Assembly (NCBI RefSeq): GCF_900169565.1 | Contig: NZ_LT828648.1 | Span: 248,001 to 312,000, forward strand | Reading direction: 5' to 3' | DNA: 64,000 bases | From: Nitrospira japonica | Lineage (GTDB): Bacteria; Nitrospirota; Nitrospiria; Nitrospirales; Nitrospiraceae | Shown: in pieces, positions 39,817 to 52,686 of the stretch | Layout of the letters: each line of letters starts with the position of its first letter | How positions within the stretch are numbered: the stretch's first letter is position 1 | Notes under the pieces: generated by a model | The model's database searches: none | The model's input: only the letters and a program-made list of their open reading frames with translations | Told to the model about the DNA's origin: nothing | Program-made: the position numbers and the translations under genes

Positions 39817-39838
39817 TGGTGTCCCCAACGGGATTCGA
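39817..39838. repeat. Outer attachment-site copy (tRNA-Glu 3' end)
   Basis: These 22 bases are identical to the 3' end of the tRNA-Glu gene at 52609-52630, including the encoded CCA, and then diverge. Similarity to the copy at 47247 extends to 39850 with two mismatches over 34 bases. It marks the far end of the island. Confidence 0.8.
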
Positions 39839-39974
39839 GGGCTTTTGCAATGCCTCCCGTCTTTCCTGGAGTATTGTATTTCGAGGTCTTGTGAAGGCAG
39901 CCTAAATCCAAAAGCAGTCTATTTGCGCCGTCGAAACTCAATTGGCGAGGGCTGATCCGATAGAGCTGGACAAG

Positions 39975-41588
39975 TTACTTGACTACCTCGATCTCGCTCG
40001 GCTGCCAGCTCTTGTCGAAAAACGATTCCGCCGGAAAGTAGAGACGCAGGATCACGAACCAGCCCTTATCTCGGGTCGTCTGTATCCAATTACCCTCCTT
40101 TGCATCGGCCGGCTTTGAGGGACCGAAATAGACTGTCGTTGAGCCGTCTGAATTTGCCACCGCCGCTGGTGACGGGTACGTCTGACTACCCGCGCGCGGT
40201 GAGCGCTGTGGAGTTTGTAACATGGAGCGGGTTTGATTGTCATACACGGTGAACGACCAGAATCTACCGGCCGGGATGTCTTTCGGCAATGTCACACGGT
40301 ATGTCTTGCCGCCATCAAAGGGATTACCGGTGGCATCCGCGAAGGTCATTAGATACTGGGAACCGGCATTGGTTAACCGCATGATCATGCCCGGTGAGTC
40401 CATCGTGTAGGCGTAATAGAACGCGGTCCGCGAGTCGAGGGTCCGCGCCCCTGTTGCTGGTAAGGGCATGATCCCGTCCTTCGTGACAAGCGGAGGCGGT
40501 GTTTGAAAGTCGAACCCGCCCTGCCACAGCATGTTGGACCACTTCGATCGTGGATAATAGGCCCAACCGGGGTAATCAGCTGCCCGAAAGTTCAGCACCC
40601 GCCCGGCCGCGTTACCAACGGCCGCGGCGTCGGTAAGGATTTTCTTCATTCGCGCGTCCGGCTTGAAGGGCTTGCCCTTGACGATGCCGATGGCTGCGAG
40701 TTGGCCCGAAAGCTCGACGTTGAAAGATGTTGCCGGCTCCATCTGCACCAGCTCATTGACCATCTCGAAGTAGGACAAGTCGTTTGGAGGAATAGTGTTG
40801 AACGATTTCCCACTGGCCTCGACAAACTTCGTTGGCGGGATGGATTGGTTGGCGCGCCCCGGCCTGACTTTACCCTCGAGGATTGCGGCCATGCTCGTGC
40901 CGAAGCCTCCGGGGATATACGGATAGATCTTCAGCGACTTCTTGATCGAGGCGACGGCAGGTTTGGGATTGTTGTTGTCCATGAACGCACGCACAGCGTA
41001 GAGCACATGCATGGTTTTCGAGTGGCCCACGTGGAACCCGCTCTCCGGAAGCGTCCCGTCATACCCTGGCGGCACAATGAGATACTTGCCTCCTTCGCCG
41101 CGATCGGGGCCAGGAAAGCCGATGTCGATGATCCAGCTGAACCACATGTCATTGATCGTGCCGAGCACCGCTGGTGGCGCCTCGATCACCAACGGACCGT
41201 TCGTGAGATCGAGAGCCGCAAGCGTGTAAATCGTGTCGGCATTAGCGGTCAGAAAGAGAGAGTTCGAATCCATTAACTCAGAAAAGATGACAACCGTGTT
41301 GTCTTCGGCTCCGATGCTCTGGAAACCCTTGCGAAGTGCATATGCCGATGCACCCGAGAAACTATTCATGAACGCGTCAAGTGCTCGCACGTAGTCCAAG
41401 TTGTTCTTGACCTTCTCCACGGTGGCATCAGTCGGCGCGCCGTCCCTGAATTCGAGCGCGCCGATGTGGGTCTCGACCCTGTCCGGCGTGGTGACGGACG
41501 TGGGAATGTTTTGCGCCTGAGCGGTCGTGAGGGTCATGGTGCCGGCGAGCACGCCCGCGATGAGATGCGGTTTGCGCCTGCGTATCAT
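39975..41588 (-). CDS. Exported DUF1254/DUF1214 protein
   Basis: A 537-residue secreted protein with a signal peptide (MIRRRKPHLIAGVLAGTMTL... AQA). A DUF1254 domain (about 50-190, ANADTIYTLAALDLTNGPLV, MWFSWIIDIGFPGPDRGEGG) is followed by DUF1214 near the C-terminus (YAYTMDSPGMIMRL, YRVTLPKDIPAGRFWSFTVY, GNWIQTTRDKGWFVILRLYFP). Function of the family is not established; some members are linked to envelope or xenobiotic responses. AGGAGCTGCGTG places the start at ATG 41588 rather than GTG 41591. Same strand as the small membrane protein 114 bases upstream. Confidence 0.85.
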   Translation of the reverse strand: MIRRRKPHLIAGVLAGTMTLTTAQAQNIPTSVTTPDRVETHIGALEFRDGAPTDATVEKVKNNLDYVRALDAFMNSFSGASAYALRKGFQSIGAEDNTVVIFSELMDSNSLFLTANADTIYTLAALDLTNGPLVIEAPPAVLGTINDMWFSWIIDIGFPGPDRGEGGKYLIVPPGYDGTLPESGFHVGHSKTMHVLYAVRAFMDNNNPKPAVASIKKSLKIYPYIPGGFGTSMAAILEGKVRPGRANQSIPPTKFVEASGKSFNTIPPNDLSYFEMVNELVQMEPATSFNVELSGQLAAIGIVKGKPFKPDARMKKILTDAAAVGNAAGRVLNFRAADYPGWAYYPRSKWSNMLWQGGFDFQTPPPLVTKDGIMPLPATGARTLDSRTAFYYAYTMDSPGMIMRLTNAGSQYLMTFADATGNPFDGGKTYRVTLPKDIPAGRFWSFTVYDNQTRSMLQTPQRSPRAGSQTYPSPAAVANSDGSTTVYFGPSKPADAKEGNWIQTTRDKGWFVILRLYFPAESFFDKSWQPSEIEVVK

Positions 41589-41702
41589 CACGCAGCTCCT
41601 TTCTGTTCTCTCCGTTCGTTAATTAGACGTGCTTCACACTTCGAAACTGTCCAGATTCCCTCTTCCCTCGCAGTTTCGACTTCGGCCGCAGTGTTGAAGT
41701 CA

Positions 41703-42245
41703 TCAAAGTGGGCGCGCTGCCCTTCGAATGCCGGCGAACGCATAACAGAGTCCGATCACATAGACGACGATGCTGAGACCCTGCGCTGCAAGCCATGCGT
41801 TCTTTCCCGCTTGTACCGGCTGAAAATAGAAATTCGGCCAAAAATAATTACAGATGACAAAGCCTGCAGCGGCGCTCACGAGTGTAGCGATAAGGCCATA
41901 GGCGCAGAGCATAGGCGCAGTACTCTCGTGGCTGGAAATAGTCATTGACTCGCCCTGTCTGGTTATTGCCAGATAAACCAATCCAATGGCGATCATGCCG
42001 AGGCCCCCAGTCTTGAGCGTCAACTCGGCCAGAATCGCCGGACAGCCCCACCACAACGTCACATTTTCTAGAAAATCTGCCCCAACATTTCCGGTTTGAG
42101 CCCCGGCCATGTAGTGTAGGATCGGGACGAAGCCGGTCAGGAATCCAGTGATGAACAGGCCGAGCCCCCAACGAATAAATCTCCAGCTTAGTTCACTGGG
42201 GGTAACGGCGGCTTTGCTGCCCATAGCTATCGCCGCGCTTCTCAT
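41703..42245 (-). CDS. Four-helix integral membrane protein
   Basis: A 180-residue protein with four hydrophobic segments (about 25-45, 70-90, 108-130, 145-170), ending FAGIRRAARPL. A conserved-looking HYMAGA follows the first helix. Size and topology resemble small four-helix membrane enzymes such as styrene-oxide isomerase, but I do not see enough to assign that. The ribosome site AGGAGGGAATGC favours the ATG at 42245 over 42251. Divergent from the AraC regulator, which probably controls it and the DUF1254 gene. Confidence 0.6.
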   Translation of the reverse strand: MRSAAIAMGSKAAVTPSELSWRFIRWGLGLFITGFLTGFVPILHYMAGAQTGNVGADFLENVTLWWGCPAILAELTLKTGGLGMIAIGLVYLAITRQGESMTISSHESTAPMLCAYGLIATLVSAAAGFVICNYFWPNFYFQPVQAGKNAWLAAQGLSIVVYVIGLCYAFAGIRRAARPL

Positions 42246-42382
42246 ATGCATTCCCTCCTATCGCGAGAGTAACCACAGGACCGACGTCAGCAAGGGATAG
42301 TATTCTTTGCCATGCAAAGGTATCAAGGCGCCCTACGCATTAATTGCCATTTCACGACATTGTTTGTTAGGGTTCGCTCCCT

Positions 42383-43426
42383 ATGAACGGCGGCCATCGG
42401 ATGTGCGAGTTGGGGAGCTTCGTTCCCTATCTGCTGTCAAAGGGGGAACAGCCAGGAAAAGTACTCAAGAAGGTGGGCTTCCCCACCCATTTACTTCTTG
42501 ATCCGGATGCATGGGTCCCTCGGGAACTATTTCTTACCCTCGTCAATGCTCTGTCATCCACGACCGGCGATCCACACTGCGGCATCCACGTTGGTGAAAT
42601 GGAGTCTTTCGTACAGTTTGATGCCTTTGGAACGGCCATTCTCAATGCTCCGACGCTGCGGACAGCGATTAACGTGGCTTGTCGCCGAATCACACTTATT
42701 CAGACGGGTACTGAGATTCGCTTGAGCGAATATCGCCGCACAGCACGCCTGAGTTACTCGCTTCTCGGACGGACAGGGGAAAATCCGGCGCAGTACTTCC
42801 AAGGCGTCCTTGTGTTTTTTCAAAACATTCTCGCTCTGACCGGCCAACCGGCCGTCGTCGATGTCGCATTCGATCACGTACCGTGCCGAAAATCAGATGA
42901 GCTGGAACGGGTGTTTGGACCGCGGTTGGTCTTCCGCGCGGGAGAGAACGCTGTAGTGTTCGATCGCGGGCTCCTCGACTTACCACTGCAATTCAGCAAA
43001 ACTGCGATTCAGATCCTTCCTGATAGGCCGGTTGAGGAAGAAGTCGTTCGAGCGGTGCTCAGCAACATGTCGGATCAGTTGGTCTACGAAACACCCAGTC
43101 TCGAAACTACGGCCGGCGTTTTAGGCCTTCATCCCCGTACGCTCGAACGACGTCTTACTGGATGGGGCATCCCATTTGAATCTCTGCTCGATGACTTCCG
43201 CCGAAACCGCAGTCTTCAACTCATCCACGAGGGGACACACACCCTGACCGACATTGCTTTCTTAGTCGGGTACTCAGATGCGGCGCATTTCACACGGGCA
43301 TTCCGACGATGGACCGGCAGGCCGCCTCGAGACTATGTCAGGGGTCTACGGCTGAGTCGTGAGTTTAGTACGCCTAGACCACCCCAACGACATTCTTCCC
43401 ATGTTGTCATTGCCGCTGACGGTTAG
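42383..43426 (+). CDS. AraC-family transcriptional regulator
   Basis: A 347-residue regulator. The N-terminal ~200 residues are of the OruR/ArgR-like ligand-binding type (GDPHCGIHVGEMESFVQFDAFGTAIL, and SLLGRTGENPAQYFQGVLVFFQN). The C-terminal double helix-turn-helix (about 230-325) has TTAGVLGLHPRTLERRLTGWG and LTDIAFLVGYSDAAHFTRAF, followed by RRWTGRPPRDYV. The divergent arrangement with the membrane-protein gene across 137 bases suggests it activates that operon. ATG at 42383, alternative ATG at 42401. Confidence 0.88.
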   Translation: MNGGHRMCELGSFVPYLLSKGEQPGKVLKKVGFPTHLLLDPDAWVPRELFLTLVNALSSTTGDPHCGIHVGEMESFVQFDAFGTAILNAPTLRTAINVACRRITLIQTGTEIRLSEYRRTARLSYSLLGRTGENPAQYFQGVLVFFQNILALTGQPAVVDVAFDHVPCRKSDELERVFGPRLVFRAGENAVVFDRGLLDLPLQFSKTAIQILPDRPVEEEVVRAVLSNMSDQLVYETPSLETTAGVLGLHPRTLERRLTGWGIPFESLLDDFRRNRSLQLIHEGTHTLTDIAFLVGYSDAAHFTRAFRRWTGRPPRDYVRGLRLSREFSTPRPPQRHSSHVVIAADG

Positions 43427-43512
43427 TTCGACGAAGTAACCGGATCACGACGCCCAATCTAGTGATTCTATGGATGCATGAGGCAACTCATCGCGGCACG
43501 CGCCCAGATAAG

Positions 43513-43557
43513 GAGCATTACCGGTAACGGTAAGGGCAATCAATGTTGCCTGAGAAC
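43513..43557 (+). repeat. Direct repeat, copy A
   Basis: A 45-base sequence containing ACCGGTAACG and ending CTGAGAAC. It matches copy B at 43729-43773 at roughly three quarters of positions. The whole gap 43427-43799 holds no supported gene. Confidence 0.5.
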
Positions 43558-43728
43558 AGGCGAATAACAGGCTGCGATCGGGCGCCCACGAGTCGGGGGA
43601 AAGGTCAGAAAACAGCTGACCCCAAAAACGAAGAAATGTGCTGAGGTACAAACGCGTCGCCCGCGAGGTGTACACCCCCAGCCCGCGGTTACCGAAGTTT
43701 CCAAGCCTGGAATACAAACCACGACAGG

Positions 43729-43773
43729 GAGCGTCACCGGTAACGAAAAGGCGATTCAATGCAGTCTGAGAAC
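43729..43773 (+). repeat. Direct repeat, copy B
   Basis: Partner of copy A, 216 bases away in the same orientation, just before the cytochrome gene's stop codon. Both copies keep ACCGGTAACG and CTGAGAAC. On the minus strand both fall in one reading frame (VTGDAP and VTGNAP), so they may be remains of a repeated coding sequence. Confidence 0.5.
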
Positions 43774-43799
43774 CGACAAGAAACAGACCTGGGATGACG

Positions 43800-45842
43800 C
43801 TATTGACAGCCTGGACGATCGCTATCGTTTACCCAAAACGTGTACTTCTCGCAATCGTCGGCTGCCGGAGGACGCGCCGCTGGAATCTGCTTCGACACTG
43901 GGGGTAAGGTTCGTAGATAGGCAATGATGGCGCGGAGGTCGACCTCGTCCCAATTCGACGCAAAATCCCAGATCATGCCCTGCCAGTGAAGCGTGCGGCC
44001 GTCGGGGGTCACTCCGCTGCGGATGGCACGAGCGATCTCCCGATCGCTCCACGCACCAATTCCGGTCGTGCGGTCCGAGGTGATGTTCCTGGTCCATAAG
44101 GTACCAAAGGCTTTCCAGCTAATCTTGAGCCCGCCGTAGCCTTCCGGACGGTGGCAGAATGCGCACGAGGCGACGGTGAAGAGCAGGCGCCCGCGCGTGA
44201 CCAATGTGGCCTGTTCTGGAGACGGAAGCGCGTTGACGTTGGGAGTTGGAATACGATCCAAAACCTGACGAGCGACCCGTTCAGGGGGCAGGAAACCGAC
44301 AGCGGGAAGGTGATACACCAACCAGCCGAGCAGGAAGCTTGCAAGAATGACGAAGACGATTCCGGCTCTCTTCCACCCGTGTCCAAGCTCTCGTGGCCCG
44401 TCACGCATTTCAGCGAAGCCGAATGCCACGATGCCCAGGATCAGGATGACCCATTGGGTGTTGATGAGAGCGGCTTGTGGCCAACCACGCGCAGCGACGT
44501 CTCCAGTTTGTCCGAAGTTGCCTTCAACGAATGTCAGGACGGCTGGTGGAAACGCGGGCCATCGAGGATCCTTAAGTTTCATGCCGAACGTTTCTAAGAC
44601 GCCGTAATGCAGCGGAGGGGGGATCCGGCTCGTGACTGGCGGCAGTGATTTCAAAAAACTGGCAATCGCGTTGGCATCCTCATCGGGCAAGGCGTGCAGA
44701 AAATTCCACGGCATGTCGAGGACATTCAGAATCCGATCTGGGGTATGGCCGTTTCTCAAAGCCTCAATAATTTGCCCGTTGCTCCATGCACCCAGTCCGG
44801 TCGTGCGATCGCCGGTCAGGTTCCGGCTGACCAGATGCCCATGTGCACCCACGTCAACCCGCATCCCACCAGCTAAATAAAAGTCATCGCTCCTATAGAT
44901 GCCAGTCCGGTTGATCTGTGTGTGGCACAGGCCGCACATCTGAGCATGAACCAAGTACGCCCCACGTTTGATCGGATCGGCGGACTGTCCGGGCCCATCG
45001 AGAACTCCCCCCGGTTCCCAGGGGGCCGTACGTGCTAGCGAAAGGACATAGTTGACGACGTCCCAACGCTGCGTCGGGCTTAACACGGTTTCAAATGCGG
45101 GCATAGGACTCGGCGCCAGTCCTATGGTAATCCGCAACCAAATTTGCTCCGGATTAAGACCTCCACGAAATGTCCACGGCGCGGAGAGGTCGCGCGACAT
45201 GATCGTATGGCCGTTCGTATCTTTCATCGGAATCAGGCCCCGTCCTTGGGGGCCATGGCAGACGCTACATCCAGCTCCGACAAAGTATGCCTTCCCACGT
45301 TCCAGGCTGGCCGCATCGCCTGGGACCTGAGGCGAGATCTGAAGCGGTTGAGGCGGGGTCTTCTGAAAGACCGGAGACAGCGTCTTGATGTGAGCCACGA
45401 CTTCGCGGATCTCTTGTTCCGTTAACAGATCTCGCCAGTACGGCATGGCACTTGCGGTCAGCCCGTTCGTCACGACGCGAACCAAATCCTCGTCGGTTGG
45501 CGGTTGTCCAGGCGGCGTCGACTTGTACTTGAATTGGCCTTGAGTGAAATCGCGTGGGTGGGGAATTAGCGAAGGGGCGGCCGGTCCGTTCCCTCGACCG
45601 TCCGGCCCATGACAGACCGCGCATCGCTGGGCGTAGATCCTTGGGCCGGGTGGCGTGTCAGGGGGTAGGCCGGTGCCTGGTGGCCAAACAAGGTCAGCAT
45701 AGTGAGCCGGATCCGGTTGCCACAACTCAACGGGATCAGCATAACCGATTCGAGCGTACAGCGAACGCGTGACGTCTAGAAGGAGGAGGAGTCCGAGCGT
45801 GACCAGTACAACACGTTTCCGCGAAAGCGACATCCAGCCCAT
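43800..45842 (-). CDS. Membrane-bound four-haem cytochrome c fusion
   Basis: A 680-residue protein with four CxxCH sites: CAVCH (74-78), CSVCH (192-196), CGLCH (303-307) and CAFCH (560-564). The N-terminal segment VVLVTLGLLLLLDV anchors it. Two more hydrophobic segments (about 462-477 and 493-512) separate haem domains 1-3 from domain 4. Domains 3 and 4 resemble the cytochrome subunits of periplasmic alcohol/sugar dehydrogenases (NLTGDRTTGLGAWSNGQI versus NITSDRTTGIGAWSDREI). It should pass electrons in the periplasm; its donor and acceptor are unknown. The ATG at 45842 (GAGG upstream) is preferred to TTG 45908. Confidence 0.82.
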   Translation of the reverse strand: MGWMSLSRKRVVLVTLGLLLLLDVTRSLYARIGYADPVELWQPDPAHYADLVWPPGTGLPPDTPPGPRIYAQRCAVCHGPDGRGNGPAAPSLIPHPRDFTQGQFKYKSTPPGQPPTDEDLVRVVTNGLTASAMPYWRDLLTEQEIREVVAHIKTLSPVFQKTPPQPLQISPQVPGDAASLERGKAYFVGAGCSVCHGPQGRGLIPMKDTNGHTIMSRDLSAPWTFRGGLNPEQIWLRITIGLAPSPMPAFETVLSPTQRWDVVNYVLSLARTAPWEPGGVLDGPGQSADPIKRGAYLVHAQMCGLCHTQINRTGIYRSDDFYLAGGMRVDVGAHGHLVSRNLTGDRTTGLGAWSNGQIIEALRNGHTPDRILNVLDMPWNFLHALPDEDANAIASFLKSLPPVTSRIPPPLHYGVLETFGMKLKDPRWPAFPPAVLTFVEGNFGQTGDVAARGWPQAALINTQWVILILGIVAFGFAEMRDGPRELGHGWKRAGIVFVILASFLLGWLVYHLPAVGFLPPERVARQVLDRIPTPNVNALPSPEQATLVTRGRLLFTVASCAFCHRPEGYGGLKISWKAFGTLWTRNITSDRTTGIGAWSDREIARAIRSGVTPDGRTLHWQGMIWDFASNWDEVDLRAIIAYLRTLPPVSKQIPAARPPAADDCEKYTFWVNDSDRPGCQ

Positions 45843-46004
45843 GAGCTGAAAACCTCGCAGGAACTTTGTTGCCAATATATTCTGAGCTCGGGAAAGAATC
45901 CCTGTCAACTGGAGCGAACAGGATCAGTGTGCGATGCTTCCGAGGATGCTGGCCCCGTGTGGCTAGACCCCAGATCGGAACCTTCAAATGCCGTGTGTGC
46001 AGGC

Positions 46005-46130
46005 CTATCGTCTAGTGCCGAGGTCGGTTCGTGGGCAACCCTCCACATAAAGTGCATGACGTTTCCGTCCTTGTCGGTACGCGTAAATACAGAGGCGCAA
46101 CTCCTCCGCGAGTTCCTCTGGTGTCGACAT
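46005..46130 (-). CDS. Possible 41-residue protein
   Basis: A short frame, MSTPEELAEELRLCIYAYRQ then GRKRHALYVEGCPRTDLGTR. GGAG sits very close to the ATG. The helix-like first half looks protein-like, but length and spacing make it uncertain. It lies in the gap between the cytochrome and the frameshifted repeat-protein gene. Confidence 0.3.
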   Translation of the reverse strand: MSTPEELAEELRLCIYAYRQGRKRHALYVEGCPRTDLGTRR

Positions 46131-46186
46131 CTCTCCACAAATGAAAGTGGTTGGGGATTTATTTGTCCGGACCATCCACAGGTTGT

Positions 46187-46638
46187 CTATCGACCCCCTT
46201 CAATTCGCCAGCCGTTCCCCAACCGATTTCTAGGGCTGTCAGGGTTGAGAGCATTCCCCGGTCCCAAGGGATTGTTGAGCGAATCGGGAGACAGCGGACT
46301 CCCATACCGGCCAAGCGGATTATTGATCGAATCCGGATCCAGGGTGTTAGTGCTCAACTTCCCACGGTAATGACCTTCCCGGTCGTACAACCGTGGCGCA
46401 TCGGTGGCCAAAGGATTGGTCGCCGAATAGGGACTGATCGGGCTTCCATATGGGCTTAGCTCATTTCTGAGACTGGTCGGGCTGAGCGCGCCGTGAGGGC
46501 CGACGTCGTTGAAGATGGAGCTTGGATCAGTGGATTGTCGCTCAGATCGCCGAGGTATTCAGCGTGAGCAAGAGGCGCCAGCCAGACGAAGGCCACGACG
46601 AGTATCCACATGGGGCACCTCCTGGCGAATGCGGACAT
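46187..46638 (-). pseudogene. Frameshifted secreted NPLG-repeat protein
   Basis: Frame 1 runs from ATG 46638: signal peptide (MWILVVAFVWLAPLAHA) and EYLGDLSDNPL. One base is then missing at about 46528-46529. The next frame continues without a break as DPSSIFNDVGPHGALSPTSL, NPLATDAPRLYDREGHYRGKL, DPDSINNPLGRYGSPLSPDS and NPLGPGNALNPDSPRNRLG to the stop at 46187. Joined, this is a typical small exported protein with (S/D)PDSxxNPxG repeats that starts YLGDLS after the signal. There is no homopolymer or slippery motif at the break, so a real mutation or a sequencing error is more likely than programmed shifting. It begins five bases after the truncated integrase stop. Confidence 0.7.
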
Positions 46639-46642
46639 GATC

Positions 46643-47146
46643 CTACGAGGTTGTCGCTATCACCGTCACTACGAGTTGGCTGACCAGTTTTTCCATCGGC
46701 CACTTCCGCACGTCAACTAAGCCGGCCATCAGGAGTGCGTCCGCCTCCTTCTCGATCTTGCGGTAGTCGTTGCCAAGTAAGGCTTCGTGAGCCTCATCCG
46801 ACATGATGTCCGGGCACGCTACATAGTCGTCCCGCTGTTGGTCAGAGATGGGACCAGCCAGTACCCGGCAGTCCTCAGCATAGTCCAACTCCGACTCCAG
46901 CCAGTGGGAGACGAGGATGTCCCGTTCTTCGTTGGTCATACGGTCCCCATACTTCTTCAGGGTGACAAAGAGTCGCTTGGTCTGAGCCTCGAACTGCGCG
47001 GAGCGTGCGGAGGCCTCGTCCTGATCAGCCGTTCTGAGGCTTCTCCAGACTTCTACACGACCCTTGAAATGCTGTCGAAGCTTTCGAGGAATGTGAACGC
47101 GACGATAGAACGTTGGACGGGAGGAATGCCGAAAAACTGTAGACAT
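46643..47146 (-). pseudogene. Truncated tyrosine recombinase (integrase), N-terminal part
   Basis: A 167-residue frame beginning MSTVFRHSSRPTFYRRVHIP, RKLRQHFKGRVEVWRSL, TADQDEASARSAQFEAQTKR. This is the start of a phage-type integrase (the arm-binding/DUF6538-like segment) found in tRNA-targeted elements. The SAM-like and catalytic domains with the R-H-R-Y residues are missing; the frame ends abruptly in QLVVTVIATTS. The start codon is 101 bases from the attachment repeat at 47247, the usual position for such a gene. It shows that the outer unit was once mobile by site-specific recombination and is now immobile unless helped in trans. Confidence 0.7.
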
Positions 47147-47246
47147 AGAACCCCCCAAACACCGTAGCTCATGTGGATAAGAGCTACAATTCCGTGAGGG
47201 ATCTGCGTGCGAATCGTCTCTGCTGGAGCGTATTTTGTGAGCTTTC

Positions 47247-47265
47247 TGGTGTCCCCAACGGGATT
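47247..47265. repeat. Middle attachment-site copy
   Basis: 19 bases identical to the tRNA-Glu 3' end (52609-52627) and to 39817-39835, in the same orientation. With the outer copy the similarity runs on to 47280. It is the junction between the two island units and lies beside the integrase remnant. Confidence 0.8.
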
Positions 47266-47402
47266 GGAGGGCTTTTGTAACGGTCCTGATCGCTCATGGG
47301 GTATCTCTTTCCGGGGGTTTGTGAATGCGGCATGAACTGCGATTTACGACTTTCCAGAATCCAACATCAGACGACCTAACCTCACAAGAAAACTCGTCCT
47401 CC

Positions 47403-47444
47403 GTGGAGTGAGGGCTACCAATATATTGGCAACCCTCACTCCAC
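47403..47444 (-). terminator. Long hairpin after the SBBP gene
   Basis: Perfect 12-pair arms (47403-47414 and 47433-47444) enclose a second palindrome CCAATATATTGG. On the minus strand a TTTT run follows about 12 bases later. It lies 46 bases beyond the stop of the SBBP-repeat gene and should end its transcript. Confidence 0.6.
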
Positions 47445-47489
47445 TGGCATTCGATTTAGCACCTTACTATCTCTTAAGGCCCACTTCCG

Positions 47490-50279
47490 TCACGGAGCAA
47501 ACGTTCCAACAAACGCCGCAGGACGGTCTGTGGCATCAAAATAGAGCCGGAGCCCCACCGCATTATTATGACTGCCTCCGGGCCCGGAACACTTGGTAGA
47601 GTCGGGGTTGGTTCCGATCCGCGCAGAGACCTTCAGGCTCAGAACATCGGTGGTCCCATTGAAACTCACTGCAGGGAATGCGGGAAAAGCGACACCGACC
47701 GCTGTCGCGAGATTCTCATTTCGCGTCACACCGGTAATACAGCGCGTCAGCCCTTCAACCACTAGAGTCGCGTTCTTGTATACCTCGGCGCGCACATCAA
47801 ATTGAGTGCCTTGATCGTCGCTATTCTTGAGCCCCACCCATACTTGAAGAGCGCTGAGTGTCGTGAGGTTTCCGTTGTTTGGCGTCGGGAGACTGGTAGC
47901 CCATGTACCAATTTCTTTCCAAAGATTGCCCCCATTGAACTTAAGACCGGCTGAATCCCGATACTTGGGAGCCGTCGCGGTAGGGGCAGTGGCATTCACA
48001 AAGAGGGTTGGCGGATTAGCGTTCGGGCCATTCCCGTGCAAGAAATAGTCGGCTATTTCAGGCGGAACTGCTGTAGCAATCTTGGCTACAAAACCGTCTT
48101 CAAGTCCACCGCCATAAGTGGGCTGGAGCGGGGTATGCGTCGTGAAGTCGCTTGCTCGAGTAACACCCGTTACATAGACATTCTCTTGGGAATCTACGGT
48201 AATCCCTAACCCACCACTAACGCCTGTGCTCCCTGTGAAAACCGTGAGGCTCAAGAGGTTGCTTCCGTTGGCATCAAGCTTTGCAACAATGACATGGTTG
48301 AAGGGAGCGCCTAGTGAGCAGCGGTCAATCTGCAACGGATGCGAGAAGTCAGGGATACGACATGAGTTTGTTGGGCCGGTGAGGTAAATGCGATCCGCCG
48401 GATCCAATGCGACGACCGAACCAAAATCGTCACCAACGCCTCCGAATAGAGTGGAGAAAATCAACGCGGTTCCCGTTGAATTGATCTTTGTGACGAAGTA
48501 ATCGTGAGCGGCGAGCGTTGATTGGAATGGAGTACCGGCCAGCGGGAAAGTCGATGATCCGGTGACGCCTGATACGACAGCATTTTCTGCGCTATCCAAT
48601 GCCAGTCCTGCCGCTAATTCATCACTGCTGCCACCTAGATAGGTTGAATAGATTAGCTGTGTGCCTGTAGGGTTTAGCTTTGCTACGATTGCATCAACGA
48701 GGCCTCCAAACGTCGGCTGAAAAGAAGTAAGCGCAGAGATCGAGCTTCCCGCCGTGCCGGGAAAATCACTCGAGAATGATCGACCAGCAACATGGGCATT
48801 TCCTGATGAATCCACACGGACCTTTGCAAGTTCATCTCTATCATTTCCTCCCAAGTATGTGGCATAGACGATTTGTGAGGAAGAGATGTCTAACTTCGCG
48901 AGAAAGCCATCCTGCACACCTCCACCATAAATGGACTGAGCAGAGCTGGGTGTAACACCCGGGAGGCTGGTCGAATTCGTATTTCCCGCGAGATGAACAA
49001 TTGAACCGCTTGCATCGACGGCGATTGACCTCGGGTTCTCTTGACCAGAACTTCCATAGAAAGTCGAATACAATAAAGTTGACGCGTTAGAATCAAATTT
49101 TGAGATGAACGCGTCGGCGCTACCGCCGTGAACAGGTTGAAGCGCCCCAGGTGTGATGGGAAATGTTGATCCACTTGTGCTTCCGGTCAACCATACATTT
49201 CCTGCGCCATCAAGAGCTACAGCAGGCGTATTGTCACTAAAGGTCCCCCCTAAATAGGTCCAAACAAGCAAAGAGCCGCTTGGACTCACTTTCAGAAGAA
49301 ACACGTCAAGCGAACCGTTGTAACTCGAGTCATAAGGTATCCCGACGACAGGTAAAGTAAGTGCGCTAAAGGCATGTCCGACGACCCACGCATCACCAGA
49401 GGAATCGACGGCAACATCGTGGGCATTGTCAATTCCTAATCCTCCTATGAAAGACGAGTAGATTATTACAGGGTCGATCACAATTGTCATGTTTGTGTCA
49501 TACGCTGCGAGTTGGATGCCAACCTCGCTCTCTGAACTGGTGGAAATTATGTAGTTCGCCTCTACAAGTGTCTTATGTCCATCCGCTCCTAGCTGGTACA
49601 CAACCGGTTTCTGCAGCTTTACTTCCCCGAGTGCCGTGGTCAGCAACAGATCTCCGCTCTTGGCCAAGTGAACATTCGAGTTGCCTTTGAACGCCAGCCT
49701 AATCTGAGTCGGATCGGCCCCTGGAGATACAATGAAATCGTATTCAAGCCGACCTTGGTTGCCGTAATAGGCGACGTCGATGCCCGGATACACATCCTTG
49801 TAATGCACCTGTGCGTAGGTCGGAATCTTTGTGTGCCACTTAGTGGGATCGGGGCCAATGAAGTAGTTGACGATCCCGGGTAGTTGGTCCAATCCTTCGA
49901 TCGCTGGATTTGGGTTAACTCCCTCTAATGCCATCCGCACGATGCTCTGCTTGATGGGTGCAGACTCCGTCTTCATGCCGAGATCATCTGTATTCGTCAG
50001 TGGCTCACGTTGCTGAAGCACCATCACAGATTCGGTTGGGGTGAGGAATAAGGTGTAGCCGTTTCCGCGGGAGATGAATTTTACGGAATCATCCGTCTGA
50101 CCCTGATTGGCTTCAAAACTCAAAGGTGCCTTCATAAGAGGGGCAATTACTTGCGCGCTATTCAATGGAGGGTTCATTGACGGCGGATGACTAGCCGCTT
50201 CGCAGATTAGGGGAGTTATCCAACCGATTACCAGGACTGTCACGACCCCAAGTTGCCTTGCTCCCTGCAAGTTTCTCAT
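47490..50279 (-). CDS. Secreted SBBP beta-propeller repeat protein
   Basis: A 929-residue protein. A signal peptide (MRNLQGARQLGVVTVLVIGW... CEAAS) is followed by the N-terminal domain usual for this family (about 45-270, LSFEANQGQTDDSVKFISRG; KDVYPGIDVAYYGNQGRLEY; DPVIIYSSFIGG). About eight SBBP-type repeats (270-760) then follow, each with a YSTYLGG-like strand, D..G...V.G.T.S..FP and G..DAFV.K. The C-terminal part (about 770-929) is a separate beta-rich domain with two cysteines (TRCITG, TKCSGPGG). These propellers are extracellular; binding partners are unknown. AAAGGAG eight bases before ATG 50279 sets the start. It is the largest cargo of the inner island unit. Confidence 0.88.
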   Translation of the reverse strand: MRNLQGARQLGVVTVLVIGWITPLICEAASHPPSMNPPLNSAQVIAPLMKAPLSFEANQGQTDDSVKFISRGNGYTLFLTPTESVMVLQQREPLTNTDDLGMKTESAPIKQSIVRMALEGVNPNPAIEGLDQLPGIVNYFIGPDPTKWHTKIPTYAQVHYKDVYPGIDVAYYGNQGRLEYDFIVSPGADPTQIRLAFKGNSNVHLAKSGDLLLTTALGEVKLQKPVVYQLGADGHKTLVEANYIISTSSESEVGIQLAAYDTNMTIVIDPVIIYSSFIGGLGIDNAHDVAVDSSGDAWVVGHAFSALTLPVVGIPYDSSYNGSLDVFLLKVSPSGSLLVWTYLGGTFSDNTPAVALDGAGNVWLTGSTSGSTFPITPGALQPVHGGSADAFISKFDSNASTLLYSTFYGSSGQENPRSIAVDASGSIVHLAGNTNSTSLPGVTPSSAQSIYGGGVQDGFLAKLDISSSQIVYATYLGGNDRDELAKVRVDSSGNAHVAGRSFSSDFPGTAGSSISALTSFQPTFGGLVDAIVAKLNPTGTQLIYSTYLGGSSDELAAGLALDSAENAVVSGVTGSSTFPLAGTPFQSTLAAHDYFVTKINSTGTALIFSTLFGGVGDDFGSVVALDPADRIYLTGPTNSCRIPDFSHPLQIDRCSLGAPFNHVIVAKLDANGSNLLSLTVFTGSTGVSGGLGITVDSQENVYVTGVTRASDFTTHTPLQPTYGGGLEDGFVAKIATAVPPEIADYFLHGNGPNANPPTLFVNATAPTATAPKYRDSAGLKFNGGNLWKEIGTWATSLPTPNNGNLTTLSALQVWVGLKNSDDQGTQFDVRAEVYKNATLVVEGLTRCITGVTRNENLATAVGVAFPAFPAVSFNGTTDVLSLKVSARIGTNPDSTKCSGPGGSHNNAVGLRLYFDATDRPAAFVGTFAP

Positions 50280-50348
50280 GATTGCTCCTTTGGTTATGTG
50301 CGATCTCTCATAGATCCGCACGTTCTGCAAGGACTAGCTAACATGGTA

Positions 50349-50390
50349 GAAAAAAGGCTGACGCACCCGAGTTCGGGGAGGTCAGCCTTC
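50349..50390 (-). terminator. Rho-independent terminator after the YezD-like gene
   Basis: On the minus strand AAGGCTGAC ... GTCAGCCTT (arms 50381-50389 and 50354-50362) with an inner CCGA/TCGG pairing, directly followed by TTTTTT. This is a textbook intrinsic terminator, separating the small gene from the SBBP gene. Confidence 0.85.
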
Positions 50391-50430
50391 GTGCCGCCAG
50401 TTGGGCTTTGCCAACTACGTGTCGATCTGG

Positions 50431-50622
50431 CTACGCTCTGTGGATTGCCACATGTTGTTGGAACGCCGCTTGCTGATGCGGGTTCAGTTCCTGATTCACC
50501 GACATGCCTTGGACTCCACCTTGTGTGAATCGAATAGTCACCGTGCCGGTATAGCCATGCTCAGAAAGCTTACGGAGCGTTTGCTCGGCCCATTGCATCG
50601 TCGGCTTCACATCTCCCATCAT
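50431..50622 (-). CDS. Small YezD/DUF2292-like protein
   Basis: A 63-residue protein; the core TLRKLSEHGYTGTVTIRFTQ followed by GGVQGMSVNQEL matches the short beta-hairpin pattern of the YezD/DUF2292 group (helix, G-x-V/I-x-I, then Gly-Val-x-x-hydrophobic). GGAGGAGG stands just before ATG 50622. It has its own strong terminator. Such proteins are cytoplasmic and of unknown role, often beside sulfur-metabolism genes; no such genes are seen here. Confidence 0.6.
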   Translation of the reverse strand: MMGDVKPTMQWAEQTLRKLSEHGYTGTVTIRFTQGGVQGMSVNQELNPHQQAAFQQHVAIHRA

Positions 50623-50904
50623 CCTCCTCCATACGAAGCGGAGTGAAAACTCTTACCCGTCGGAATTAGGCTGTAACTCCAGATCTCCAGGTTGAGCACT
50701 GGCTCCACGTATGTCGAATTCAATCTAAGCGTTTCGTGTTTGTCATGGGGAATGACAAAGGGTAACGCGGTTCCTGCAGGATCACGTGCAGGGCCTCAGT
50801 CACTGTATTACGCTAAATCGTGCGTATCATGCGAAGGAATGAGGCTCTATTTCTATGCGCCATCCGGCGTAGGTAGAATAATTTATTTGCTGCAGGCTGT
50901 ATCC

Positions 50905-51111
50905 TCATAAATGGAGGTGCTTTCCATCCTGATGGATGAAGACGATGGCTTCCGCTCGCGTCTGTACCCCTAGGCATTGATAAATTCGCTGCAAGTGCTT
51001 CTGAACTGTCCTCGGACTGATTGACTCCTTTTCGGCAATTTCCTTGTTTGACATGCCGTGAATAAGCCATTTGAGAATCTCTTGTTCCCGCTTGGTTAAA
51101 TCATTACCCAT
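50905..51111 (-). CDS. Stand-alone LuxR-type helix-turn-helix protein
   Basis: A 68-residue protein that is essentially one GerE domain: LTKREQEILKWLIHGMSNKE, IAEKESISPRTVQKHLQRIY, QCLGVQTRAEAIVFI. No receiver or ligand domain is present upstream in frame. It may be a natural small LuxR regulator or the surviving end of a larger gene. Its recognition helix is nearly the same as that of the divergent LuxR gene at 51.3 kb, so both may bind similar sites. ATG at 51111. Confidence 0.75.
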   Translation of the reverse strand: MGNDLTKREQEILKWLIHGMSNKEIAEKESISPRTVQKHLQRIYQCLGVQTRAEAIVFIHQDGKHLHL

Positions 51112-51291
51112 TGGTCAGGCCATTTATCCCTTACAGGAAACCGACTGTACTCGTAAGAGATACCATGGCTCCATACGTCACCAGGCGTAAATACTTATAC
51201 CTATACAATGATGATGCATGCCTATTTGCATTTCCTCGTAGGATTCAGGACAATGCGCGGCACGCTGCTCCAGGCATAACCAAGGGAATGC

Positions 51292-52404
51292 TTGGTGAAT
51301 AGGCTCACCCACCACTCCACAAGGCAGGCGCTAGAGTTTCTTCGCGAGCTATATGTTCTTCGCTCGTGGGACGCCCTTACCACACATATCGTGGAATCGA
51401 TTCCGACACTAATCCCGACTGGTATTTGCTCCTACAACGAAATGAGCTCTCGCCGTCGACACGCCACGTACAAGATGTGGCCCGCAAACCGAACGATGAT
51501 TCCTGATGCTCCGGAGATCTTGGGGCTATATTCTCACCAACATCCTTTAGTAACGCACATGGAGCGCACCAAAGATTTCAGATCTCAAAAAATCACGGAC
51601 TTTCTTTCTCAGCGACAATTCCGCACAACAGAGCTCTTTAACGAGCTATATCGACCGCTACAGATTCCCTACAACATGGCAGCTGGTCTCGCATTGGACC
51701 GCAATTGTCTCGTTGCTCTTGCCCTCAATCGTGATGGAAAAGATTTTACGCCTGACGAGTTGGCTATCCTGGAACTTCTCCGACCACATGTGCGGCAGGC
51801 ATTTGCAAACGCCAGCACCGTCACCAGCATGCTCGAGGAATTATCAGCACTCAATCGAGCGATGGAGGAGATCGATCGTGCGCTTCTCGCCTTTACGGAG
51901 GAAGGACGGATTCAATGGGCTACGAGTCGAACCCGGCGAATGATGAAAGAATACGGATTTCCTTGCCAACGCCCTTCAAAATGGCTACCAAGTCCTCTGC
52001 GCGAATGGACAAAAAGCGCACTCGAGAAATTGAATCGTTCGAGCGACTTCCCGTCTGCTCTCCAACCCCTCATCATCGCCAAAGGTGATCGCAGTCTGAT
52101 CATTCGGTTGGTGCGGGACGGCATCAGATTGCTGCTATTTTTCGATGAGGTTAGCGCAGAGTGCAGCGTGGAAGAACTCGAGTCACTCGGACTAAGTCGT
52201 CGTGAGACAGAGATTTTGTCTTGGGTGGTTCAGGGGAAAACCAATCCCGAGATCGGAGCGATTCTGAGCATCAGCTCCCGGACCGTCCAGAAGCACCTAG
52301 AACACATTTATAACAGGCTAGGGGTAGAGAACCGACATGCGGCAATTATCACGTCAATGGCAGTGCTGCGGCGAGAACGCGCCGGCTGTATCGCAGGCAG
52401 GTGA
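51292..52404 (+). CDS. LuxR-family regulator with N-terminal sensor domain
   Basis: A 370-residue protein. The first ~290 residues are a sensor-like region (GAF/PAS-like in outline: FTPDELAILELLRPHVRQAFANA, then a long linker helix and a second alpha/beta part). The C-terminal GerE domain reads LGLSRRETEILSWVVQGKTN, PEIGAILSISSRTVQKHLEH, IYNRLGVENRHAAIITSM. The start is uncertain: TTG 51292 or GTG 51295, both after AAGGGA. It is divergent from the 68-residue LuxR protein and is the last gene before the tRNA, so it may control the inner unit. Confidence 0.75.
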   Translation: MVNRLTHHSTRQALEFLRELYVLRSWDALTTHIVESIPTLIPTGICSYNEMSSRRRHATYKMWPANRTMIPDAPEILGLYSHQHPLVTHMERTKDFRSQKITDFLSQRQFRTTELFNELYRPLQIPYNMAAGLALDRNCLVALALNRDGKDFTPDELAILELLRPHVRQAFANASTVTSMLEELSALNRAMEEIDRALLAFTEEGRIQWATSRTRRMMKEYGFPCQRPSKWLPSPLREWTKSALEKLNRSSDFPSALQPLIIAKGDRSLIIRLVRDGIRLLLFFDEVSAECSVEELESLGLSRRETEILSWVVQGKTNPEIGAILSISSRTVQKHLEHIYNRLGVENRHAAIITSMAVLRRERAGCIAGR

Positions 52405-52608
52405 CCTTCTCATGAGCAGAATGTTCGCCACACATTGGCGACTCTACCGTACTAAGAGGCACTATTTACTATTGATAATTTCACAACGGGTGCCTATCCG
52501 CTGGGACGAGGACCAAGCTCGAAAATCCCAGAGTAAATACCGTCCAGACAGGTGGTTCTGATTTTGCTGCGGAGAGGAAAAGCTTTTTGCAGACTACGTA
52601 TTTCTACC

Positions 52609-52686
52609 TGGTGTCCCCAACGGGATTCGAACCCGTGTTGCCGGCTTGAAAGGCCGGCGTCCTAGGCCAGGCTAGACGATGGGGAC
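52609..52686 (-). tRNA. tRNA-Glu (anticodon TTC)
   Basis: On the minus strand the gene begins GTCCCCATCGTCTAGCC. Acceptor arms are GTCCCCA/TGGGGAC with discriminator A and encoded CCA. The anticodon arm GCCGGC-CTTTCAA-GCCGGC gives TTC, and the T arm is ACGGG-TTCGAAT-CCCGT. All arms pair fully. Its 3' end is the insertion target of the island; the whole gene is intact because the repeat restores the end on recombination. Confidence 0.97.

Follow-up and report, generated by a model that had tools for sequence, protein, structure and literature searches.

The gene described here encodes a membrane-anchored cytochrome with four haem domains. We propose that, on balance, it acts as a non-catalytic, membrane-tethered periplasmic electron bridge, which would connect a dehydrogenase-type haem pair with an oxidase-type dihaem pair. 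This reading is based on the prediction of three membrane helices, the constant order of the four haem domains, modules resembling CcoP and the haems 1c/2c of dehydrogenase subunits, spread between genera and the lack of a constant neighbour. The gene is located in a 64-kb stretch of Nitrospira DNA (hereafter, the window), and its features are summarized in Table 1. The initial annotation called the layout unusual, and the present results support this view. The protein seems to be a new arrangement of known domains that is apparently unnamed so far; it was not named in the titles or abstract openings of the literature searched.

Table 1. Positions of the cytochrome gene, its domains and the surrounding island in the window
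Feature	Position	Strand	Remarks
Putative att site	39817..39838		22-base repeat of the tRNA-Glu 3' end; same orientation
DUF1254/DUF1214 protein	39975..41591	-	Island cargo; unlinked to the cytochrome elsewhere
Small membrane protein	41703..42251	-	No Pfam/NCBIfam family
AraC-type regulator	42383..43426	+	Divergent from the small membrane protein and DUF1254 genes; convergent with the cytochrome gene
Four-haem membrane-anchored cytochrome	43800..45842	-	680 aa; stop codon included
C-terminal tail	43806..43853	-	Two invariant cysteines, C664 and C679, which may form a disulphide
Haem domain D4, placed like 2c	43869..44225	-	Residues 540-658; CAFCH 560-564; invariant M623
Membrane hairpin in the D3-D4 linker	44310..44495	-	Model helices 450-476 and 486-511; hydropathy ~458-476 and ~494-512
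Haem domain D3, 1c-like	44619..44987	-	Residues 286-408; CGLCH 303-307; invariant M377
Haem domain D2	45018..45323	-	Residues 174-275; CSVCH 192-196; invariant M247
Haem domain D1	45363..45671	-	Residues 58-160; CAVCH 74-78; invariant M133; D1 and D2 match 6h5l_B
N-terminal membrane helix	45744..45821	-	Residues 8-33 in the structure model; hydropathy peak 11-29
Integrase remnant	46643..47158	-	DUF6538 domain only; 171 aa
Putative att site	47246..47265		20-base repeat of the tRNA-Glu 3' end; same orientation
tRNA-Glu (ttc), island anchor	52609..52686	-

The open reading frame starts with ATG at 45842. A TTG codon located 66 bases upstream is an alternative start and would yield a protein of 702 aa; most relatives in the alignment described below start near the position of the ATG. 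The initial annotation reported four CxxCH domains in one 680-residue chain, with two membrane helices ahead of the last haem domain. The frame, the motif positions (residues 74, 192, 303 and 560) and the hydropathy profile agree with this description. The CxxCH pattern was found 7 times in the DNA of the whole window against 3.87 expected, and 8 of 100 shuffles were equally high; therefore, the count alone is not above chance. However, four of the seven patterns belong to the cytochrome gene. Since these four are in one frame, match the Cytochrom_C/CBB3 domains of Pfam at E values of approximately 1e-30 and are conserved in all 18 aligned sequences, the haem motifs of the cytochrome are not due to chance. 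Pfam identified Cytochrom_C and Cytochrome_CBB3 in the protein and nothing else, and no NCBIfam model reached its own cut-off. A promoter and terminator scan did not reveal a signal exceeding that of shuffles.

A single scan of genome contigs with the cytochrome identified 32 loci. The alignment comprised 18 rows, namely, the window protein, 13 of the 32 contig loci and four whole-genome loci, each with a single frame carrying four CxxCH motifs. Loci with broken frames (L044 and L046), two contigs of one MAG (L047 and L048), a partial match with three motifs (L049), partial and weak matches (L051-L064) and the same genes as later loci (L009-L011) were left out. Identity to the window protein ranged between 48 and 78%, with a mean column identity of 68%. 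The record titles name Nitrospira, other Nitrospirota, Nitrospinia, Acidobacteria, Gemmatimonadetes, Deltaproteobacteria, Rhizobiales and Chloroflexi; the named records are MAGs, and single placements may be binning errors. The order of haems and helices was the same in all 18 full-length sequences, which represent several phyla. All haem cysteines and histidines, one methionine per domain and the C-terminal cysteine pair were invariant (18/18). The four methionines are the presumable haem ligands.

Two hydropathy peaks were present between haems 3 and 4 in every row, and an N-terminal peak was present in all 17 rows that retained the N-terminal end. Two of the 18 rows had one extra weak peak. 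Since the number of helices between D3 and D4 is even, both domains should be on the same, periplasmic side of the membrane. In 17 of 18 rows, K/R outnumbered D/E in the loop between the hairpin helices. The exception was the window protein itself (2 K/R and 3 D/E among residues 471-490), which counts against the bridge. The full-length structure model, built without haems, had a pLDDT of 76.2 and a pTM of 0.79. The C-terminal half folded separately gave a weak model (pLDDT 64.7, pTM 0.66), inferior to the full-length one and a point against the bridge; however, its PDB match agreed.

The N-terminal half (residues 63-271, D1-D2) is 35-36% identical to Kustc0457 of the Kuenenia HAO-like complex (6h5l_B; E 2.4e-39), and the modelled D1-D2 region appears to share its fold (Z 16.2, rmsd 2.2, 207 residues). 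In contrast to Kustc0457, the dihaem module of the window protein is fused to membrane helices and two further haem domains. The 6h5l entry is a complex of Kustc0457 and Kustc0458. In excerpts of the literature, kustc0457 is described as the dihaem redox partner of the octahaem kustc0458 (PMC6423088), and the nitrite-reducing role of the complex is disputed (PMC11897245). Because this role is disputed, the match suggests that D1-D2 is an electron-transfer module and nothing further. A gene for an octahaem HAO-like partner was not found in the window, in which the cytochrome accounts for four of only seven CxxCH patterns.

The same half also resembles CcoP of cbb3 oxidases. The NCBIfam model TIGR00782 matched with an E value of 1.2e-15, but at 57.6 bits against a cut-off of 179.95. 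In CcoP, two class I haem domains come after an N-terminal helix, and the cytochrome begins in the same manner. However, CcoN and CcoO do not adjoin the cytochrome gene. COX1 was below the cut-off in the genome of the window (33.6 versus 34.8 bits) and above it in 3 of 14 genomes. Similar dihaem modules were present at the end of a COX1-FixO fusion in G127 and ahead of the EB_dh domain in a 596-residue protein of the window's own genome. We noted a 982-residue Nitrospiraceae frame that joins COX1, FixO and a dihaem CcoP-like module (L104:4994-7942, minus strand), a one-chain cbb3-like oxidase, and a 960-residue frame with COX1 in G172.

The C-terminal half matched the cytochrome subunits of fructose, alcohol, aldehyde and glucose dehydrogenases. 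The nearest known systems are the three-haem subunits of membrane-bound fructose, alcohol and aldehyde dehydrogenases (7w2j/8jej, 8gy2 and 8gy3). Over 260 columns, D3 and D4 were collinear with the first and second haem domains of nine three-haem proteins (hhalign, E 2.5e-34). The D3-hairpin-D4 region of the full-length model matched 8jej_C with a Z score of 18.8 over 262 residues; the C-terminal half folded alone matched dehydrogenase subunits with 16.9 over 260 residues, and the first unrelated row scored 7.7. Furthermore, 9jqa_C, the entry title of which states that it is truncated for haem 1c, aligned with D4 (residues 253-371 of the half). The collinear alignment, the structural matches and the position of 9jqa_C place D3 as 1c and D4 as 2c. 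D4 alone scored higher against domain 1 of the three-haem proteins than against domain 2 in a profile comparison.

The cytochrome also differs from these subunits. The three-haem proteins have 3c after 2c, whereas the present chain ends approximately 20 residues after D4 with no further CxxCH. It carries a dihaem module in front, which the three-haem subunits lack, and no dehydrogenase gene adjoins it. Haems 3 and 4 are separated by 248-263 residues in the 18 rows, whereas 1c and 2c are separated by 146-149 in 10 of 10 comparators. The 1c-2c linker of the cytochrome is approximately 110 residues longer, including the two membrane helices, while none of the 10 comparators showed a helix in this linker (no hydropathy peak above 1.3). 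As separate observations, a Caballeronia plasmid (L111:1-5302, plus strand) carries a three-haem relative of the D3/D4 type next to cytochrome c oxidase genes, and a Methylobacterium nodulans plasmid (L108) presents a similar case.

The initial annotation noted the similarity of domains 3 and 4 and attributed it to internal duplication. The similarity was confirmed: D3 and D4 were 42% identical over 111 positions (z 21.9, 200 shuffles), and the other five haem-domain pairs gave z values of 2.9 to 7.6. The duplication fared less well. In a tree of 47 rows, which left out six of the 18 aligned rows and used identical contigs once, D3, D4, tri-haem domain 1, tri-haem domain 2 and single-domain cytochromes each formed one group. 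The D3+D4 grouping had 81/82 support, which is under the starred level, and trees that instead placed D4 or D3 with the single-domain cytochromes were not rejected (p-AU 0.27 and 0.30). Moreover, D3 and D4 correspond in order to domains 1 and 2 of the three-haem proteins in the alignments. A duplication inside the cytochrome is possible; however, D3 and D4 may be an old 1c/2c pair that predates the fusion rather than a new duplication.

The initial annotation regarded the cytochrome as island cargo, and this is supported: the gene is located in a tRNA-Glu island. Repeats of the tRNA-Glu 3' end bracket the DUF1254, small membrane protein, AraC and cytochrome genes together with an integrase remnant, the DUF6538 domain of which we take to belong to an integrase family. 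These two inner repeats share bases beyond the tRNA sequence. On the right flank, the alignment with four of six congeners (G181, G182, G184 and G185) begins exactly at the tRNA end; in G183, it begins 35 bases further out, and G186 showed nothing beyond a tRNA-sized match on another contig. Of five congener loci that were examined, four contained the tRNA end (L115-L118), and the sequence on its opposite side is different in these. The GC content is 0.565 between the repeats (39817-47265), 0.512 in the next segment, 0.616 on the right and 0.570 on the left. The repeats, the congener junctions and the contents and GC of the segment led us to this assignment. The next segment (47266-52608), with its low GC, adjoins the element and is likewise linked to tRNA-Glu; it contains an SBBP/DUF7948 protein and a LuxR-type regulator. 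Between the cytochrome and the integrase remnant, two short frames (46187-46638, minus strand) contain fragments of a small secreted protein that has NPLG-type repeats.

The gene is transferred between bacteria, and no partner gene accompanies it consistently. G185 belongs to the window's genus; its copy is 93% identical to that in G141, a member of another genus, and 60% identical to the window's copy. A single clade for the window's genus was rejected (p-AU 1.6e-93). The rejected clade and the cross-genus identity indicate gene transfer between genera. Among phage records, there was one weak match (29.5%), and none of 632 matching plasmid records covered 80% of the query.

The seven neighbouring window genes did not recur beside relatives in 21 loci, except for short LuxR-domain matches in two. 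Of 10 other genomes with the cytochrome, 2 had a match to DUF1254; the better match (36%) was far from the cytochrome. The initial annotation proposed a pathway shared with the AraC regulator, the DUF1254 protein and the small membrane protein. We rejected this link because the AraC gene converges on the cytochrome gene and the neighbours do not recur. In some Nitrospira, a ROK kinase, a Rieske-FMN_red protein and a SoxH-like metallohydrolase are recurrent neighbours. This could be the sign of a partner, which would count against the bridge; however, these neighbours all occur in related genomes and may reflect shared descent. In G182, an Act-like cluster is located approximately 1.5 kb downstream of the cytochrome. 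ActD was present in 11 of 175 family genomes and coincided with the 17 cytochrome-matching genomes in G182 only; therefore, a role as an accessory cytochrome of alternative complex III was rejected. A congener carries, at L077:11670-17011 (plus strand), a cluster resembling alternative complex III, with genes for a multihaem cytochrome, a molybdopterin protein, an FeS protein, NrfD and ActD.

In the mechanism that we favour, all four haem domains would face the periplasm, and each haem would be ligated by His and Met and hence have a high potential. Electrons would hop between the N-terminal and C-terminal modules and be exchanged, in either direction, with the respiratory chain through its soluble c-type cytochromes. 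The gene would be a stand-alone accessory that plugs into whichever chain the host has. Alternatively, the protein may be the cytochrome subunit of a periplasmic dehydrogenase whose gene lies elsewhere in the genome, since dehydrogenase cytochrome subunits are the nearest solved structures to D3 and D4; this would correspond to the oxidation pathway of the initial annotation, minus the neighbouring island genes. Sugar-related genes also lie near some relatives: a trehalase, a debranching-like enzyme and a ROK kinase in G201/G235, and xylose-isomerase-like and Gfo/Idh/MocA proteins in a Chloroflexi MAG. However, a search for three dehydrogenase families, GMC_oxred_N, MoCoBD_1 (aldehyde dehydrogenase) and PQQ_2, in the window's own genome (99.96% complete) found none of the first two and PQQ_2 below the cut-off; control genomes were matched in these searches and in that for COX1 alike. 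Such a subunit is, therefore, unlikely here for these three families. GMC was found in 6 of 11 cytochrome-bearing genomes and is not required. Domain 3c, the domain nearest the flavin in FDH, is also absent from the cytochrome. We consider a dehydrogenase subunit of this type unlikely overall. With dehydrogenase-type haem domains in a genome without GMC or MoCoBD_1, the cytochrome probably has another partner, which may be of a different kind from the three families searched.

Related dehydrogenase subunits pass electrons to ubiquinone. The hairpin and D4 of the cytochrome might similarly be a site of direct electron exchange with membrane quinones, with the dihaem end as the other source or recipient, and the placement of D4 as haem 2c beside an added hairpin kept in 18 of 18 rows favours this. 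However, the hairpin sequence is poorly conserved and the 18-row alignment did not reveal a quinone-site motif, and we regard quinone exchange as quite improbable. The patchy distribution would also fit a passenger gene, selfish or in decay, that is carried by mobile elements and lacks a settled function in Nitrospira. The C-terminal half matched at an E value of 1e-10 in only 17 of 175 family genomes; 10 of these matches were near full length, and 8 of those were unbroken. Broken or partial copies occur in G231, G166, G108, G141 and G252; among loci, L085, L087, L080, L074 and L086 are such copies in several Nitrospira genomes. In contrast, the conservation across phyla, with invariant haem and Met residues and the mean column identity given above, makes a mere passenger highly improbable. 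The periplasmic electron bridge remains our preferred reading. We also raise, as a long shot, that the protein represents an unnamed, horizontally spread one-chain respiratory module in which a quinone-facing dehydrogenase-type haem pair around the hairpin is wired to an oxidase-type dihaem head. If so, a host would be able to join its quinone pool and cytochrome c pool without complex III or a dedicated dehydrogenase.

The present study describes a cytochrome architecture that is conserved over several phyla and in which general libraries recognise only cytochrome c. It provides a clear target for the question of which respiratory accessories Nitrospira nitrifiers acquire via tRNA islands.
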